A stretch of 29,225 bases of DNA, taken from a virus. The stretch's first letter is position 1. Every line of letters begins with the position of its first letter. Made by a program: the position numbers and the translations under genes. The stretch covers positions 1-29,225 of IMG/VR virus record IMGVR_UViG_3300050821_005892. The stretch is one strand, 5' to 3'. Below are positions 5,821 to 22,468 of this stretch, in pieces. The notes under the pieces are model-generated. The model had not been told where the DNA came from and searched no databases. It was given only the letters and a program-made list of their open reading frames with translations.

Positions 5821-6670
5821 AGGTCTGTAAGCTGCCGATATGGAAGAGGGCGCACACGTGGTCACCACCGGAATTCAGGACGCGCGAGCAAAGCTCAAGG
5901 CATTCGTGGACGCGGCGGCCGACGCGAAGCAGCACACGGTGATCGAGCGGCGAGGCAAGCCCGTTGCCGTGCTCGTTCCCGTGGCCTGGTACATCAGCAA
6001 GGGCGGCGATCCGCGCGAGCCGCTGTCGCAGCTCACCGACGGGTCCTGAGCCGTGGCTGAGCGCACCGCGGTTTACCGCCCCTTCAACGCGGACGGCGCA
6101 CTCTTGTATGTCGGAATCACTGACGACATAGCCACGCGGTGGCGGGACCATGCCAAGGTCAAGCCGTGGTGGCCTCAGGTCGTCGAACAGCGTGCGATGT
6201 GGTATCCGACGCGCGAGGACGCGCTGGCCGTCGAGGGACGCGCGATCGAGACGGAGTCCCCGCTCTACAACATCAACGCGTCGCCGGGGCCGACGCCCAT
6301 GCCCAACAGGGCGATCCGGATGAGCGATGAGATGTGGATGGCCTTCGGGGTCGCGTGTAAGAGCTTGGGTGTGACTCGATCGCACAAGCTCCGCGAGCAC
6401 ATGCGGAACCGCATCGGCGAGTGGCAAGCCGAGAAGGAGCTCATCGCCCGCGAGTCCGCCGAGTCCTGACCAGCGCCCCACCTCAAGATCCGCGTACCCC
6501 TCAAGGCGCGCGGCGTTGAACCCTGCCCACCAGCTGCTCCGGCATCTCGGGCACCGGTAGACGCACCTGATCTCGCCGGCCATGGCGAAGCGGACGACCG
6601 GCGCGACGAACGGCGAGGTGTTGCAGCGGGGGCAACGGTCTGTGAAAGGTGGGGCACAGATGGTCGTCAC
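5804..6670 (-). CDS. Zinc-ribbon protein; 3' part runs antisense through the Phd/GIY-YIG pair
   Basis: GTG at 6670 (GTGA overlap with the upstream gene) opens a protein whose first 65 residues are convincing: CPRC near residues 13-16, then RCVYRCPRC near 36-44 and SSWWAGFNAARLEGYADLEVGRW. This is a four-cysteine zinc ribbon of a kind common as small actinophage proteins. The frame then has no stop until 5804, so the formal product is 288 aa, and everything left of about 6470 is antisense to two well-supported plus-strand genes. Probably the original 3' end was lost when the plus-strand module arrived, or a stop has been mutated. The recognisable coding part is 6470-6670. Treat the left boundary as formal only. 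Confidence 0.45.
   Translation of the reverse strand: MTTICAPPFTDRCPRCNTSPFVAPVVRFAMAGEIRCVYRCPRCRSSWWAGFNAARLEGYADLEVGRWSGLGGLAGDELLLGLPLADAVPHVLAELVRSSHTQALTRDPEGHPHLIAHPDRPVGHGRRPRRRVDVVERGLRLDRASLDGQRVLARRIPHRTLFDDLRPPRLDLGMVPPPRGYVVSDSDIQECAVRVEGAVNRGALSHGSGPVGELRQRLARIAALADVPGHGNEHGNGLASPLDHRVLLRVGRRVHECLELCSRVLNSGGDHVCALFHIGSLQTSCRST
5858..6049 (+). CDS. Phd/YefM-family antitoxin or repressor
   Basis: A 63-aa protein with the Phd/YefM pattern: TTGIQDARAKLKAFVDAA, then HTVIERRGKPVAVLVPVAWY, the strand-turn-strand hallmark (xRxGKPVAVLV). Such proteins bind operator DNA with their N-terminal half and neutralise a toxin with the C-terminal half. The GTG at 5858 was chosen because GGAAGAGG lies 8 nt upstream and the family usually begins one or two residues before TTGIQDAR; an ATG at 5840 would add six residues and relies on AGGAGG 16 nt away. 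It is one of few plus-strand genes here and is followed after 3 nt by the GIY-YIG gene, the position of a toxin. It could also be an orphan regulator. Confidence 0.85.
   Translation: MVTTGIQDARAKLKAFVDAAADAKQHTVIERRGKPVAVLVPVAWYISKGGDPREPLSQLTDGS
6053..6469 (+). CDS. GIY-YIG nuclease domain with C-terminal ribbon-helix-helix, candidate toxin
   Basis: A 138-aa protein. Residues 5-75 form a GIY-YIG-type domain: TAVYR strand, LLYVGITDDIATRW (Tyr19, Arg29), KPWWP, then Glu61 and PLYN (Asn73), so the catalytic Tyr, Arg, Glu and Asn of the fold appear present. Residues 88-121 (AIRMSDEMWMAFGVACK, SLGVTRSHKLREHMRNRI) look like a ribbon-helix-helix DNA-binding unit. It starts with GTG at 6053, 3 nt after the Phd/YefM stop, so the two are one transcription unit. 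The fold and neighbour suggest a nuclease held in check by the antitoxin, but a homing-type or regulatory role is possible. A related GIY-YIG protein is encoded at 21451-21936 without the RHH tail or an antitoxin. Confidence 0.8.
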   Translation: MAERTAVYRPFNADGALLYVGITDDIATRWRDHAKVKPWWPQVVEQRAMWYPTREDALAVEGRAIETESPLYNINASPGPTPMPNRAIRMSDEMWMAFGVACKSLGVTRSHKLREHMRNRIGEWQAEKELIARESAES

Positions 6671-10399: not shown

Positions 10400-10912
10400 T
10401 CAGGTGACGGCCGACGCCGTGGCGCGTTCTCGGGCCCGAGCCCTGGTCCGTTCGCGGGCCCGCTGCAGCGTCGCCACCTTCACTCCGAGCTGCGCTGCGG
10501 CCACATCGATCGGCACCCCGGCGGCCAGCAGCGGCTCGGCTTCGGCATGGAGGTCTTCGGCGCGCCATGTGGTGCGCCAGGAAGCCGGGACGGCCTGCGG
10601 GTCGGTGATCTCGTCGCCGTCCCATGCGGATGCGGGCGCCCACCGGCGCTGCCGGGCGACGATGCGCGTCTGTTCGGCGTCGCCGGATGCGGACCCGTTG
10701 GTCTCGGCCGGGATGCCGGCCCAGCGCGTGTAGAGGTCTGCGACGGCCTGGGCGACGTGCGGCTCGATCCGGTGGTGCCGGTGCCAGTTGTGGACGGTCC
10801 GTGCCGGCTGGCCGAGTTCGGTGGCGATTCGGGCGGTGCTGTAGCCGTCGCAGCCCAGGGCGCGGAGCATGCGGCGGGTACCGGTAGCGTCGGTGAGGGG
10901 CGCGGCGTTCAT
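10400..10912 (-). CDS. Helix-turn-helix DNA-binding protein, 170 aa
   Basis: The N-terminal part contains an HTH (YSTARIATELGQPARTVHNWHRHHRIEPHVA, about 22-52) resembling bacteriophage HTH proteins that regulate early genes. A second HTH-like segment (IDVAAAQLGVKVATLQRARERTR) lies near the C-terminus, followed by an Arg-rich tail. The middle has WAPASAWDGDEITDPQAVPASW, a signature I associate with actinobacterial 'helix-turn-helix' accessory proteins. ATG at 10912 overlaps the methyltransferase stop (ATGA), so it is co-translated with it. The target is unknown. Confidence 0.8.
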   Translation of the reverse strand: MNAAPLTDATGTRRMLRALGCDGYSTARIATELGQPARTVHNWHRHHRIEPHVAQAVADLYTRWAGIPAETNGSASGDAEQTRIVARQRRWAPASAWDGDEITDPQAVPASWRTTWRAEDLHAEAEPLLAAGVPIDVAAAQLGVKVATLQRARERTRARARERATASAVT

Positions 10913-11958
10913 GCGGCCACCTGCTCGGCGTCGGACAGGTTGATGCCGGTCGCGGCGGACAGGACGTGCAGGGCCAGCAGCGGCGGGACGGCGTTGCCGA
11001 TCTGCAACGCCACCCGCCCCTTGTTGCCCTGGAACGGATAGCCGTCCGGGAACCCCTGGAGCTTTGCGGCATCGCCGGGGTCGAGATTGAGATGCCCACG
11101 GGCATGCTTTCCGCCGACGTGCCCGACGGTGCCGCTCAGCGTGGGCGCGGGACGTGCCCACGCCCAGTGCTGCGGGTCGCCCATCGCGGCGAGCATGGCC
11201 CTGCGGCTGGCGTTGCCGAACGGCTCGGCGCCGCCGGTGGCCGTACCGCCGCCCGTCACCGTCGGCGCCGGGCGGCGGATGTAGCCCCAGCCGAGGGTTT
11301 CGGCCATGGTGCGCCACGGGGGCGTGTAGCCGCCGAACAGGTCGTGGGCGCCGATCTCGCTGTGCGTCGGCGCCGGGGGCGCGGCTTCGCGGACGCGGGA
11401 CGCGATGAGTACGGCCCGCCGCCGCACCTGCCCGAGTCCGTAGTCTGCGGCGTTGAGGATCCCGGTCCACGTCGAGTAGCCGCGCGTTCGCAGGATCCGG
11501 GCGATGTGACGCCACAGCGGCAGTACCGACGGAACCTGCTCCAGCGCGACCCACTCCGGGTGCAGGTCCAGCGCGTACCGCAGTGGTTCCACGACCAGCG
11601 GCGTGCGCGGGTCCGAGCACGCCGACGCGAGCTGTGCGCGGGTGTCGCGGCCGGCGGCGAGATCGTCCAACGCCTGGTGCAGCAGCGGAAGGTCGCCCAC
11701 GCCTTCGCCCTTGCCGGCCGCGGAGAACGTCCCGCACGGCGGGGAGAAGATCAGGCCGCGGGTCTTCCCTGCCATACGGTGCAGCGGCAGCTGTGCGACA
11801 TCGGCCCGGACGGTCAGGTGTCCTGCTGCGGTACGGGTGGCGCACGCCCACGGGTCGAGTTCGATCCCGACCTCGCGCAGGCCGAGTGCGGCCATGGCGA
11901 CGCTCCATCCGCCGGGGCCTGCGCAGCCGTCTACGGCGTCGAACACGGGGGCGGTCAC
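10909..11958 (-). CDS. DNA (cytosine-5) methyltransferase
   Basis: A 349-aa C5-cytosine methyltransferase with motifs in order: I (FDAVDGCAGPGGWSVAMAALG, AdoMet site, 6-26), IV (SPPCGTFSAAGKG, catalytic Cys75), VI (EQV, 140-142, in place of the usual ENV), VIII (QVRRRAVLIA, 177-186), the target-recognition region, then X (LQGFPDGYPFQGNKGR with QIGNAVPPLLA). It flips and methylates cytosine. EQV and PPCG are mild departures from consensus seen in phage enzymes. GTG at 11958 overlaps the RusA stop. There is no companion restriction endonuclease, so it likely protects phage DNA. Sequence specificity cannot be read. Confidence 0.93.
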   Translation of the reverse strand: MTAPVFDAVDGCAGPGGWSVAMAALGLREVGIELDPWACATRTAAGHLTVRADVAQLPLHRMAGKTRGLIFSPPCGTFSAAGKGEGVGDLPLLHQALDDLAAGRDTRAQLASACSDPRTPLVVEPLRYALDLHPEWVALEQVPSVLPLWRHIARILRTRGYSTWTGILNAADYGLGQVRRRAVLIASRVREAAPPAPTHSEIGAHDLFGGYTPPWRTMAETLGWGYIRRPAPTVTGGGTATGGAEPFGNASRRAMLAAMGDPQHWAWARPAPTLSGTVGHVGGKHARGHLNLDPGDAAKLQGFPDGYPFQGNKGRVALQIGNAVPPLLALHVLSAATGINLSDAEQVAA

Positions 11959-12473
11959 GAGTCGCCGCCGGCGGGCGTGATGTGCAGGACGAGTTGCCCG
12001 AGCGGGACGCGGTCCCCGACGACGTAGGACACCTTGGTCACGTACTTGGGGGAGTCGTTGACCAGGACTTTCGCATCCCGCAGGCCGTCGATCGCGGCTT
12101 TCACCAGCGGTGCCACGTTCTCGGGGTCGAGGGCGCGCCTGCCTTTCGCGGGGTGCTGCACGGCGAGGATCGTGACCGGGACGTCGAACGCGGGTATCCG
12201 CTGGAGTGTGGCGATGTTCTTCATGTCGCCGCGGATCTGCTTGGTGATCCGGGCCCGGACCATGTAGTGGAGCCCGGCGTTCGCGCCGCACTGGAACAGG
12301 GTGCGCCGGGCGTCGGGGGTGTAGCCGGGCGGGAACGCGATGGTGCACGGCTTGGCTCCGGCCGGGGTAGTCGTGCGGGCGTCCGGCCCGCTTCCGGCCG
12401 GGGGCGTGGTGCCCTCGGGTGCGACGGCCTGGTCGGTCGTCGTCGCGCCCGAGGGGAACAGGGGGGCGGTCAT
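11955..12473 (-). CDS. rusA: RusA-like Holliday junction resolvase
   Basis: A 172-aa protein whose C-terminal 120 residues match RusA endonucleases, which cut Holliday junctions as dimers. The acidic residues needed for Mg2+ binding are seen in RALDPENVAPLVKAAIDGL (Asp116, Asp129) and VLVNDSPKYV (Asp140). The family motif 'D.DN..K...D.L......ddD' is preserved with Pro-Glu replacing one position. The first 40 residues are a low-complexity Thr/Pro/Ala extension. ATG at 12473 overlaps the DpdA-like stop (ATGA). It would resolve recombination intermediates made by the RecT/YqaJ pair. Confidence 0.86.
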   Translation of the reverse strand: MTAPLFPSGATTTDQAVAPEGTTPPAGSGPDARTTTPAGAKPCTIAFPPGYTPDARRTLFQCGANAGLHYMVRARITKQIRGDMKNIATLQRIPAFDVPVTILAVQHPAKGRRALDPENVAPLVKAAIDGLRDAKVLVNDSPKYVTKVSYVVGDRVPLGQLVLHITPAGGDS

Positions 12474-13105
12474 GCGGCACCGCCGAACAGGGAAGGCTGC
12501 CGGTCCAACTCGGCCGTCCAGCCGAGCGCGCGCGCCAGGTTCTTCGATGGCCCGAACGCCACATACGTGCCGTCCGCGGAGTCGCACCCGAACCACTCGG
12601 CGATCCGCAGCCGCTTCAGCGAGTTGACGCGACCCATGTGCACGCCCTTGCCACGGGCGTTGGCTTCCCGCGACAGCCGTTCGGCGACCGGGCCCGTCTT
12701 CCACGCGGTGTCGCCGGCGAGGAACAGGACGTCCAGGTCGTCCCACGGGATCAGGTCGCCGTGTTCGCAGCCGTTCTGCGCTGCGAACGCCGCCGGGATG
12801 CCGAGGTCGCGGATGAACGGCAGCCACGGCGCGGACTCGGCGAAAGTGCCGGCGGCATCGAACGGCACGTCGGGGGCGACAGCGAACCGGCACCGTTCGG
12901 GCCCGTACTCGCGGACACGGTCGGCCAGCCACAGGTACCAGGCCTCGGGGCCAGGCCAGCCTTTGCCGAACTTGCCGTTGTCGGCGCCCCATTCGGCGCC
13001 GTCGGGGATGCGGTTTCCCTGGGCGGGCGTGGTCATGCAGCCGAGGCGCCCGGCGGTCATGGCGGCGCGCACGTCAGGTCCCGATGGCGTGGCCAGGTAC
13101 AGCAC
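12470..13105 (-). CDS. dpdA: DpdA-like 7-deazaguanine DNA transglycosylase (queuine tRNA-ribosyltransferase-like)
   Basis: A 211-aa TIM-barrel-type protein of the queuine tRNA-ribosyltransferase-like superfamily found in phages. Such enzymes exchange guanine in DNA for a 7-deazaguanine base. Recognisable blocks are [14 protein letters not shown] (26-31), ADNGKFGKG (41-49), RCRFAVAPDV (71-80, candidate catalytic Asp), VHMGRVNS (155-162) and GCDSADGTYVAFG (173-185). It is shorter than tRNA enzymes (about 380) but fits short phage forms. The GTG at 13105 was chosen because the conserved first strand begins there, with GGAAA upstream; this makes a 32-nt overlap with the QueF-like gene. Specificity for DNA rather than tRNA is inferred from the phage setting. 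Confidence 0.85.
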   Translation of the reverse strand: MLYLATPSGPDVRAAMTAGRLGCMTTPAQGNRIPDGAEWGADNGKFGKGWPGPEAWYLWLADRVREYGPERCRFAVAPDVPFDAAGTFAESAPWLPFIRDLGIPAAFAAQNGCEHGDLIPWDDLDVLFLAGDTAWKTGPVAERLSREANARGKGVHMGRVNSLKRLRIAEWFGCDSADGTYVAFGPSKNLARALGWTAELDRQPSLFGGAA

Positions 13106-13415
13106 GGCTGATTTCCACGGTGATGCCGGCGGTGGTGAACCGGGCGGTGACGGAGGCCACGGTGATGTCCGGGGCGGCTTCGCCCAGCCGCTCGAAGACT
13201 TCGTCGACGAGGTCTTCGTGGCTGATGCTTCGCTCCGTGAAACCGTCGAGGTAGGCGGCCAGGGAGTGCAGTTCGACGGTCGAGCCGTTGCAGGTCCAGA
13301 CGGCGGTGACCCTGCCGTGGTCGGCTTCGTTGACGAACGGGCACAGGTGGTGGACGGGTGCGGTCGCGACGATGGTGACCGGGGCGTCCGTGGGGACGAG
13401 TTCGATGGGTTTCAT
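13074..13415 (-). CDS. QueF-like 7-cyano-7-deazaguanine (preQ0) reductase family protein
   Basis: A 113-aa single T-fold protein. QueF reduces the nitrile of preQ0 to preQ1 with NADPH. The catalytic pair Cys-(7)-Asp of the 'LCPxTxxPD' motif is present as [10 protein letters not shown] (Cys25, Asp32). The QueF substrate motif E-x-K-S-L is ELHSL (48-52), and the later HE pair is His66-Glu67 in SISHEDL. All spacings fit the unimodular Bacillus type (about 165 aa), though this copy is shorter. A QueF-like amidinotransferase (archaeosine type) is the main alternative. ATG at 13415 overlaps the transporter stop (ATGA); the 3' end overlaps the DpdA-like gene. Confidence 0.8.
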
Positions 13416-13927
13416 GCGGTCTCTCCAATGGCGACTCGCCGCCGTCGGGCGGCGATCAGGACAGTGGCGATCGCGATGCCGTAGACCTTGCCGAGGACCT
13501 GGCCCGGCATGAACGCCAGCGACCCGAATGCGATCTGCAGGAACACCGCGGAGTCCAGGACAGCGCCGGCGATTCCGCCGACGGCCACGGCCCGAGCCCA
13601 GCGCGGCGCGATCCAGGTGAACAGCGCGAAGTCGGTCAACTCGGAGATCGCGAACGCGACGGCCGAGGCGGTGGCGATGTGCGGATCTGCGACCGCGTAG
13701 GACAGGACGACACCGGCGGCGAGCGCCAGCAGGCTGACGGTCTTGCCGAGGGCCCATTGGACGTAGTCGCGCAGGACGAGCGCCGGGCCGATGAGGAACA
13801 CGCCGGCGGGTCCGCTGAGGCCGAGGCCGACGGGGACGATGCCGTAACGCTGGACGAGCGCGTTGGCGCCGATGATGCACGCCAGGTAGGCGGCGATCGC
13901 GAGCGCGGCGGGGATGCGGCGGTTCAC
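13412..13927 (-). CDS. VUT/YhhQ-family queuosine-precursor transporter
   Basis: A 171-aa integral membrane protein with five to six hydrophobic segments. The VUT (YhhQ, QPTR) family imports queuosine precursors such as preQ0 and preQ1 in bacteria. Family marks are the N-terminal ANALV segment, [14 protein letters not shown] (conserved Arg53-Asp54), [14 protein letters not shown] (94-106) and [14 protein letters not shown] (121-134). GTG at 13927 overlaps the upstream stop (GTGA), and the stop overlaps the QueF-like start, so transporter, reductase-like enzyme and transglycosylase form one translationally linked trio. It would supply the deazaguanine base from the medium or host pool to the phage enzymes. 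Confidence 0.9.
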
Positions 13928-21450: not shown

Positions 21451-21936
21451 CTAGGCGGCAGTTGGCCTGCGGGGGTGCGTCGGGTGCGTGGTGGGGTCCG
21501 CATGCCACGAGGTCCACATGGCACGGGTTTCGGCGAACTCGTCGGGCTCGACGGGCCTCGCCCACCCCCGCACGGCAAGGCCTGCAAGCGAAGTCGGCTC
21601 AGACTCGTCCCCGCCGAACCGGTCGCGGAACGTTCCGGGATGCTCGCGGATTGGGAGCGGGCGCCGGGGGTACGGCCTCGTGATGTTGTAGCGGGGGTTC
21701 TCGCCCGGGATCGCGCACGCCTCCTGGTGCAAGGCGATCCGCCGGTCGGCGCACCACTCGATGGCTGCGCTACGAGCATCAGGCCACCAGGGCTTACAGG
21801 CGTGGTGATTGGACAGGCGCGCCTTCAGGTTGCAGGTGATGCCGACGTACAGCAGCCGTTCGTCTGCATCGAAGATCCGGTAGACAGCGGTCGGCCGGCC
21901 GAAGATCCTGGATCTGAGGGTGGACGGGGCGTTCAT
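21451..21936 (-). CDS. GIY-YIG nuclease-domain protein, 161 aa
   Basis: Residues 16-86 form a GIY-YIG domain: TAVYRIFDADERLLYVGITCNLKARL (Tyr30, Arg40), HHACKPWWPDARSAAIEWC, then Glu72 in HQEACAI and PRYN (Asn84). The four catalytic positions seem present. Its closest relative in this window is the antitoxin-linked protein at 6053-6469, with shared TAVYR, LLYVGIT and KPWWP blocks. The tail (about 90-161) is Pro/Arg-rich and unlike the other. It starts at ATG 21936 (ATGA overlap) and ends with TAG, followed by a gap. It may cut DNA or RNA in early infection; substrate unknown. Confidence 0.82.
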   Translation of the reverse strand: MNAPSTLRSRIFGRPTAVYRIFDADERLLYVGITCNLKARLSNHHACKPWWPDARSAAIEWCADRRIALHQEACAIPGENPRYNITRPYPRRPLPIREHPGTFRDRFGGDESEPTSLAGLAVRGWARPVEPDEFAETRAMWTSWHADPTTHPTHPRRPTAA

Positions 21937-22133
21937 GCCGCACCCGCCATATCCGAAGCGGCATTCTGCTCGGCGGTCAGCTTGGCGACTGCAGGGGCGA
22001 AGATTCGGCGCAGCCGTTCGACGGTCACCGGGCTCGGTTCGGGGGCTGCTGCGACGAGGCGGCCGATATCGGTCATGACCTGCTCGCCGAGCCGGGCGGC
22101 CATCGCCTCGCGGGAGAACTCGCCCGTGGTCAT
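21933..22133 (-). CDS. Small hypothetical protein, 66 aa
   Basis: A 66-aa helical protein (FSREAMAARLGEQVMTDIGRLV, then SPVTVERLRRIFAPAVAKLTAEQN). ATG at 22133 overlaps the upstream stop (ATGA), and its stop overlaps the GIY-YIG start, so it is the second gene of the early operon. The second half reads like a short helical DNA- or protein-contact module, but no family is recognised. Excisionases and anti-repressors often occupy this place; there is no sequence proof. Confidence 0.74.
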   Translation of the reverse strand: MTTGEFSREAMAARLGEQVMTDIGRLVAAAPEPSPVTVERLRRIFAPAVAKLTAEQNAASDMAGAA

Positions 22134-22468
22134 GCCGCAACCGGCTCGGCGTCGTCGATGTCGATGACGCGCAGCACGGCCGCGAGCGCCTCCTTCTCGG
22201 TGACTCCGTGGATCCGCTCGTAGCAGCGGACGACGGCTCCGAGGGTGAAGATGCTCGGGTACTCGGCGCCGTTGTCGCTGCCGATGTCGGCGAAGCGCTG
22301 CCGGTGCAGCCCTGCGGCCCTGGCGATGCGGGCGAGGTTGGGCTTTCCGTCCTTGGAGTGCCGTAGCTCGTCGTGGCCTGCGGCGATCAACTCGAAGACG
22401 TTGTGTTCCAGGCCTAGCGGGAGTCCGCGTCGGGGTGGTCTGAGTCCTATCGAAGTGACGTCCGTCAT
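22130..22468 (-). CDS. HTH protein, first gene of the early operon (Cro-like position)
   Basis: A 112-aa protein with a helix-turn-helix at about 44-63 (NLARIARAAGLHRQRFADIG) and a second helical part (FTLGAVVRCYERIHGVTEKEALAAVLRVIDID). It is divergent from the repressor at 22732 and opens the leftward early operon, the place of a Cro-like or early regulator. No Shine-Dalgarno is seen. A -10-like TAGTCT lies 7 nt before ATG 22468, so the message may be leaderless. A 16-bp operator-like sequence covers the start codon. An upstream frame to 22582 would run through the operators and is rejected. Confidence 0.78.
   Translation of the reverse strand: MTDVTSIGLRPPRRGLPLGLEHNVFELIAAGHDELRHSKDGKPNLARIARAAGLHRQRFADIGSDNGAEYPSIFTLGAVVRCYERIHGVTEKEALAAVLRVIDIDDAEPVAA

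Follow-up and report, generated by a model that had tools for sequence, protein, structure and literature searches.

Results

Gene layout of the locus

The window, which is the whole stretch of DNA analysed here, is a 29,225-base virus fragment (IMG/VR record IMGVR_UViG_3300050821_005892). PHROG matches on the record comprise SSB, a DnaB-like helicase, a replication initiator, a DNA methyltransferase and a RecE-like exonuclease, together with a DNA polymerase exonuclease subunit and an integrase. These replication and recombination genes and the integrase identify it as a temperate phage's early region. The closest dpdA relatives of the window gene lie on Streptomyces prophage-like contigs, and the carrier is a temperate actinobacterial phage (actinophage). 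The features of interest are as follows.

13412..13927, minus strand: VUT/QPTR (COG1738, YhhQ-type) membrane protein, 171 aa, assigned by PF02592, PHROG 4899 and hhalign to YhhQ
13074..13415, minus strand: QueF-family T-fold protein, 113 aa, assigned by PF14489, its AlphaFold2 fold and invariant residues
13074..13105, minus strand: 32-nt overlap of the QueF and dpdA genes, the stop of the upstream gene lying inside the dpdA start region
12470..13105, minus strand: small DpdA-like protein, 211 aa, GTG start, compact TIM barrel, assigned by PHROG 15826 and its AlphaFold2 fold
11955..12473, minus strand: downstream gene (MTAPLFPSGATTTD...), its start overlapping the dpdA stop

The ATGA at 13412-13415 is common to the VUT stop and the QueF start, and another at 12470 is common to the dpdA stop and the start of the downstream gene. 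An earlier note on this DNA had described three coupled genes; all three are where it placed them on the minus strand, and because their order recurs in many records, it is not due to chance. The residues it singled out are also present, namely Cys-7-Asp, ELHSL and HE in the QueF-like protein and RD, SELTD and DS in VUT. We infer translational coupling across the 32-nt overlap. The gene at 11955..12473 is probably in the same transcription unit as dpdA but outside the modification module. Two genes downstream of dpdA lies a DNA methyltransferase (PHROG 116, window 10909-11956), and its proximity suggests that the DNA-modification region is wider than the trio. Elsewhere in the window, the open reading frames 6053-6469 (plus strand) and 21451-22140 (minus strand) share similar motifs, YRPFNADGALLYVGITDD and YRIFDADERLLYVG, and are possibly GIY-YIG-type proteins.

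A recurrent VUT-dpdA pair

At least 246 stretches in IMG/VR encode relatives of small DpdA. Roughly 80 IMG/VR loci were read, and in most of them the gene immediately before dpdA encodes VUT; where the overlap was measured, it is mostly the same 32 nt. The arrangement is also found in phages of Mycobacterium, Arthrobacter and Rhodococcus. Mycobacterium Fishburnevirus (Pclasvirinae) phages and Rhodococcus phage ReqiPine5, for example, carry VUT and small DpdA with overlapping ends and no QueF. The basic unit is thus not the trio, as had been proposed, but VUT-dpdA, to which QueF is an uncommon addition seen in about ten records. QueF sits between VUT and dpdA in the window, Aoka, L022, L023, L063, L067, L075, L087 and the Nocardia genome locus L132, and adjoins dpdA upstream, with VUT undetected, in L066 and L071. 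Arthrobacter phage Aoka has VUT, QueF and DpdA in identical order as genes 38-40; these are annotated as membrane protein, hypothetical protein and DpdA-like, with no function described. On the DpdA tree, QueF requires at least five changes, three of them forced by well-supported branches, and the window trio is placed among pair-only relatives. From this scattered distribution it follows that QueF moves in and out of the slot.

The VUT protein itself barely passes the Pfam Vut_1 cut-off (PF02592, 27.7 bits against 27.2), where its relatives score 44-47 bits. It matches PHROG 4899 at 2.9e-31, and an alignment of the phage VUT proteins matches E. coli YhhQ by hhalign with E = 2.1e-7. It falls below the NCBIfam equivalog cut-off for the queuosine precursor transporter TIGR00697 (26.1 versus 50.95 bits). 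We predict that VUT is an importer of a 7-deazaguanine precursor.

The small DpdA-like protein

The 211-aa protein matches PHROG 15826 (7.8e-86), which is listed as "unknown function", and has zero Pfam matches. Its GenBank relatives carry the label 'DpdA-like tRNA-guanine transglycosylase'. No profile match to PF01702, NF041059 or PHROG 887 was found, phmmer and hmmsearch against PDB sequences returned nothing, and NCBIfam gave no significant match. DpdA1 of 9g and Sonali likewise miss PF01702, so the Pfam test is weak for small DpdA. AlphaFold2 predicts a TIM barrel with good confidence (pLDDT 89.8). The closest solved folds in a Foldseek search of the PDB are generic TIM barrels, not TGTs, while a search of viral folds (BFVD) matched several queuine tRNA-ribosyltransferases, including DpdA1 of phage Sonali.

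Residues D42, D79, Q110, G131, H156 and D178 are invariant in the family, and even very diverged relatives keep D42-N43, P78-D79, Q110, G131, H156-x-G-R-V-N and D178-G-T. Mapped by eye, the order D42-D79-Q110-G131-D178 parallels the active site of TGT and DpdA1 (DSGAF, D, GG, VHGFG, CDSSSW). Comparison with DpdA1 by hhalign was no more than suggestive, with P = 2e-4 and a probability of 21%, in a test by which the accepted pair DpdA1-TGT went undetected. Against the single E. coli Tgt and a TGT alignment, hhalign found nothing; because the positive control of DpdA1 against TGT failed too, this null result is not evidence against membership. DpdA2 of nt-1 belongs to PHROG 10773 (~460 aa) and gave no hhalign match to small DpdA, which by PHROG is distinct from both DpdA1 and DpdA2. 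DpdA1 (PHROG 887) was detected in 2 of 46 records tested, Sonali and L073. The other 44, the synthesis-bearing L060, L076 and L090 among them, have no recognised transglycosylase candidate besides small DpdA. Taken together with the gene neighbourhoods described below, small DpdA likely belongs to the DpdA/TGT superfamily and is predicted to be a DNA guanine transglycosylase.

Arthrobacter phage Sonali (L002/L102) and L073 each combine DpdA1, small DpdA and preQ0-synthesis genes in one phage, and their two predicted transglycosylases possibly have differing targets. In L090 (672-1388 and 2633-3352), small dpdA and QueC each occur twice on a single phage contig. Homologues with 38-48% identity occur outside Actinobacteria, in Paenibacillus (L141, L143, L145), Planctomycetes (L142, L144) and Chloroflexia (L138), the last with VUT upstream too.

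Probable import in place of synthesis

The window gene set had been described as lacking FolE, QueD, QueE and QueC, and this holds for the 29-kb fragment. Profile searches detected neither QueC nor QueD in it, and tblastn, whose positive controls worked on other loci, detected no FolE, QueE or DpdA1. Among 85 distinct virus records encoding small DpdA, 63 have Vut_1, six have QueC and QueD, and none has both (Fisher p = 1.7e-4, with kinship only partly corrected). In about 16 virus records, some of them short fragments, small DpdA is accompanied by neither VUT nor QueC/QueD. In four of the six synthesis-bearing records, the position just before dpdA that VUT otherwise holds is taken by a preQ0-synthesis gene (QueE in L060, QueC in L073, QueD in L076 and L089), and these neighbours also link small DpdA to the superfamily. 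On the best DpdA tree the synthesis label is scattered and needs at least four changes, of which strongly supported branches force only one. The mutual exclusion and the shared slot support the view, already put forward for this locus, that import replaces synthesis.

That modification would depend on the host or the environment for its precursor is not a new idea. Hutinet et al. (2019) proposed precursor uptake by DpdA-only phages and noted phage YhhQ homologues, which were uncorrelated with any phage group (PMC6884629). Mycobacterium phage Orion, which is DpdA-only, is unmodified in a host without preQ0 (PMC6884629). What is new here is the coupling of VUT to dpdA and the exclusion of synthesis genes.

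The QueF-family protein

Both profile and predicted fold uphold the placement of the 113-aa protein in the QueF family, for which the earlier note had asked for a structure comparison. It scores 34.1 bits against Pfam QueF (PF14489, cut-off 27.3). The top match of its AlphaFold2 model (pLDDT 94.5) is archaeal QueF-Like 5JYX (TM 0.82/0.89), followed by B. subtilis QueF (4F8B, TM 0.75/0.60). QueF and QueF-Like proteins are defined by a T-fold with a catalytic Cys, an Asp and a substrate Glu (Cys55, Asp62 and Glu97 in B. subtilis); the counterparts C25, D32 and E67 are invariant among the phage homologues, as is the whole of Ser65-His66-Glu67. This invariance makes preQ0 binding and thioimide chemistry plausible.

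The NADPH-binding motif of QueF is E(S/L)K(S/A)hK(L/Y)(Y/F/W) (PMC5372742). In the phage homologues the corresponding stretch reads E-L-H-(S/A)-(L/F)-(R/A/G), and in the window, from E48, E-L-H-S-L-A-A-Y. The first lysine is replaced by histidine in 10 of 10 phage sequences and the second by alanine in the window, so that the window protein has lost both lysines of the reductase motif. The best NCBIfam match, QueF-II, reaches 32.5 bits and is far under its cut-off of 86.9. Reduction of preQ0 to preQ1 had been assumed for this protein; as stated this is unsupported, and with a degenerate NADPH motif and QueF-Like, an archaeosine synthase, as nearest fold, preQ1 is not the default expected product. 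QueF-Like adds ammonia to preQ0 within tRNA, and by that report no T-fold enzyme had previously been shown to act on nucleic acid (PMC5485725). From sequence and model, the 113-aa protein is probably not an ordinary preQ0 reductase; its predicted target is the nitrile of preQ0, either as the free base or within DNA. Sequence alone is insufficient to decide its product, since phage Dp-1, whose QueF was once predicted to be QueF-L, nevertheless contains dPreQ1 in its DNA (PMC6884629).

A single-sequence QueF search of IMG/VR returned zero relatives and an alignment-based search two; the remaining homologues were found via dpdA loci. The C-terminal tail of QueF was considered as a relic of the VUT tail, and this was ruled out, the likeness being that of the conserved dpdA start in another frame.

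Host genomes and Dpd

QueC content was read in 31 carrier genomes, 14 with the VUT-dpdA pair and 17 without VUT. A cluster with bacterial DpdA and QueC lies elsewhere in the genome in 7 of the 14 but in only 1 of the 17 (p = 0.011), in a comparison with small numbers, draft genomes and only partial control of relatedness and sampling. Host genomes with a VUT-dpdA prophage and a Dpd cluster include those of L121, L123, L127, L128, L129, L139 and L140 (loci L168-L171 and L173-L175), and the clusters contain QueC, QueE, QueD, FolE2, DpdA, DpdB and in places DpdC; NCBIfam and PADLOC confirm DpdA, DpdB and DpdC in example host genomes. In an eighth VUT-positive genome, L132, a short contig carries QueC together with a FolE2-like gene, and six of the 14 have no genuine QueC. 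Bacterial DpdA has a background of 22/393 (5.6%) in the Streptomyces sampled, divided into 4/6 VUT-positive and 18/389 other genomes (p about 1e-4, to be read with possible sampling bias in mind). This co-occurrence was absent from the earlier reading of the locus.

A tRNA TGT scoring over the Pfam cut-off is absent from 18 of 19 actinobacterial carrier genomes tested, and the precursor is therefore unlikely to be wanted for queuosine in tRNA. Streptomyces genomes within L108-L120 (except L119) form a closely related small dpdA group without VUT; L111, the most closely read of them, has a ParB-like gene nearby.

Discussion

We consider it likely, from sequence comparison, that the locus equips its temperate actinophage with a salvage-type module for 7-deazaguanine DNA modification. 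VUT would bring preQ0 (or preQ1) into the cell during infection or lysogeny, and the small DpdA-like TIM barrel would swap guanine in DNA for the 7-deazaguanine base. Where present, the QueF-family protein would attack the nitrile of preQ0, whether as the free base or once inserted in DNA, to give a thioimide and from it a further derivative; given the altered NADPH motif and the QueF-Like fold, an amine is no more likely than an amidine (archaeosine-type) or other addition product. Points against the module are the generic solved folds and missing database matches of small DpdA, the unmodified DNA of Orion and the roughly 16 records in which small DpdA has no VUT, QueC or QueD beside it. DNA modified in this way may resist restriction, including that of the resident Dpd system, itself 7-deazaguanine-using, in many hosts.

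Several other readings concern the individual proteins. The QueF-like protein could be an ordinary NADPH-dependent reductase that yields preQ1, so that the phage DNA carries dPreQ1. Pfam family, the sub-threshold resemblance to QueF-II and the precedent of Dp-1 speak for it, and the replaced lysines and the preference of the fold for QueF-Like over QueF speak against it; on balance we find it somewhat unlikely. We give little credence to the module modifying host or phage tRNA instead of DNA, with the small barrel acting as a pared-down tRNA-guanine transglycosylase that the transporter supplies. VUT-TGT fusions do exist in bacterial queuosine salvage (PMC11130926), and since most actinobacterial carriers have no TGT of their own, a phage could supply one. 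However, small DpdA ends shortly past its putative nucleophile, with no room for the C-terminal zinc-binding part of tRNA TGTs, dpdA lies in the phage replication region and is associated with host Dpd DNA modification, and the queuosine genes QueA, QueG and QueH were not found in viruses (PMC6884629). It is about as improbable that the barrel is an enzyme that handles preQ0 in some other way and accompanies transport and synthesis genes. The generic TIM barrels retrieved from the PDB and the additional DpdA1 of Sonali and L073 would fit such an enzyme, but the residue order, TGT-like as mapped by eye, and the viral fold matches argue for a transglycosylase, and DpdA1 was not found in L076 and L060 despite their QueC and QueD.

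A further reading puts the overlap with Dpd at the centre: the phage would draw on host preQ0 and label its DNA as self, thereby escaping Dpd restriction, with the transporter topping up the supply or serving Dpd-negative hosts. The enrichment of bacterial DpdA in VUT-positive hosts over the Streptomyces background favours it, as does the association of ADG-type Dpd with restriction of transformation (PMC12707154). The host counts carry the limits given above, though, 6 of the 14 VUT-positive genomes have no genuine QueC, and an importer seems needless if the host makes preQ0. We regard this reading as less likely than not. Dpd hosts may also be merely preQ0-rich, which would explain the host overlap and remains an alternative to the phage copying the host mark. 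A bolder version, in which a possibly undescribed small DpdA subfamily and a phage importer form a portable salvage system that evades Dpd by copying the host mark, and the QueF variant is a third QueF type acting on preQ0 in DNA, strikes us as rather unlikely.

The salvage module we favour resembles the DpdA pathways of phages 9g, CAjan and Rosebush (DpdA1, PHROG 887) in its predicted exchange of a DNA base with a preQ0-type precursor, and DpdA1 and small DpdA have similar D(S/N)G.F, VH.G and terminal Asp motifs. Those phages have their own preQ0-synthesis genes and a DpdA of ~300 aa, whereas the window has a transporter, no synthesis genes and a member of a 211-aa family with marginal sequence similarity. 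DpdA-only phages (group 3 of Hutinet 2019, such as Orion and 7-11) and YhhQ-bearing phages also have no synthesis genes; here, in contrast, the transporter gene and dpdA overlap as a unit from which synthesis genes are excluded. Archaeal QueF-Like (5JYX, 5K0P), the closest predicted fold to the window QueF, shares with it the nitrile-attacking Cys and the Asp, and the NADPH motif is not intact. Its substrate is preQ0-tRNA, while for the window protein, adjoining DpdA, preQ0-DNA or free preQ0 would be expected. The bacterial Dpd system (DpdA-C with QueC/D/E and FolE2) also places 7-deazaguanine in DNA and frequently shares a host genome with the phage pair, but it is a separate locus with a 400-aa DpdA, its own synthesis genes and restriction genes.

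The question lends itself to direct testing, since phages have been isolated both with the pair (Fishburnevirus mycobacteriophages) and with the trio (Aoka). If the salvage reading is true, PHROG 15826 would gain a function, as would a transporter earlier unlinked to any phage group. Phage DNA modification could then hinge on a scavenged micronutrient, and resistance to restriction would vary with the medium, the neighbours and the host. It would also hint at phage countermeasures to bacterial Dpd systems, whose role in restriction has had little study.
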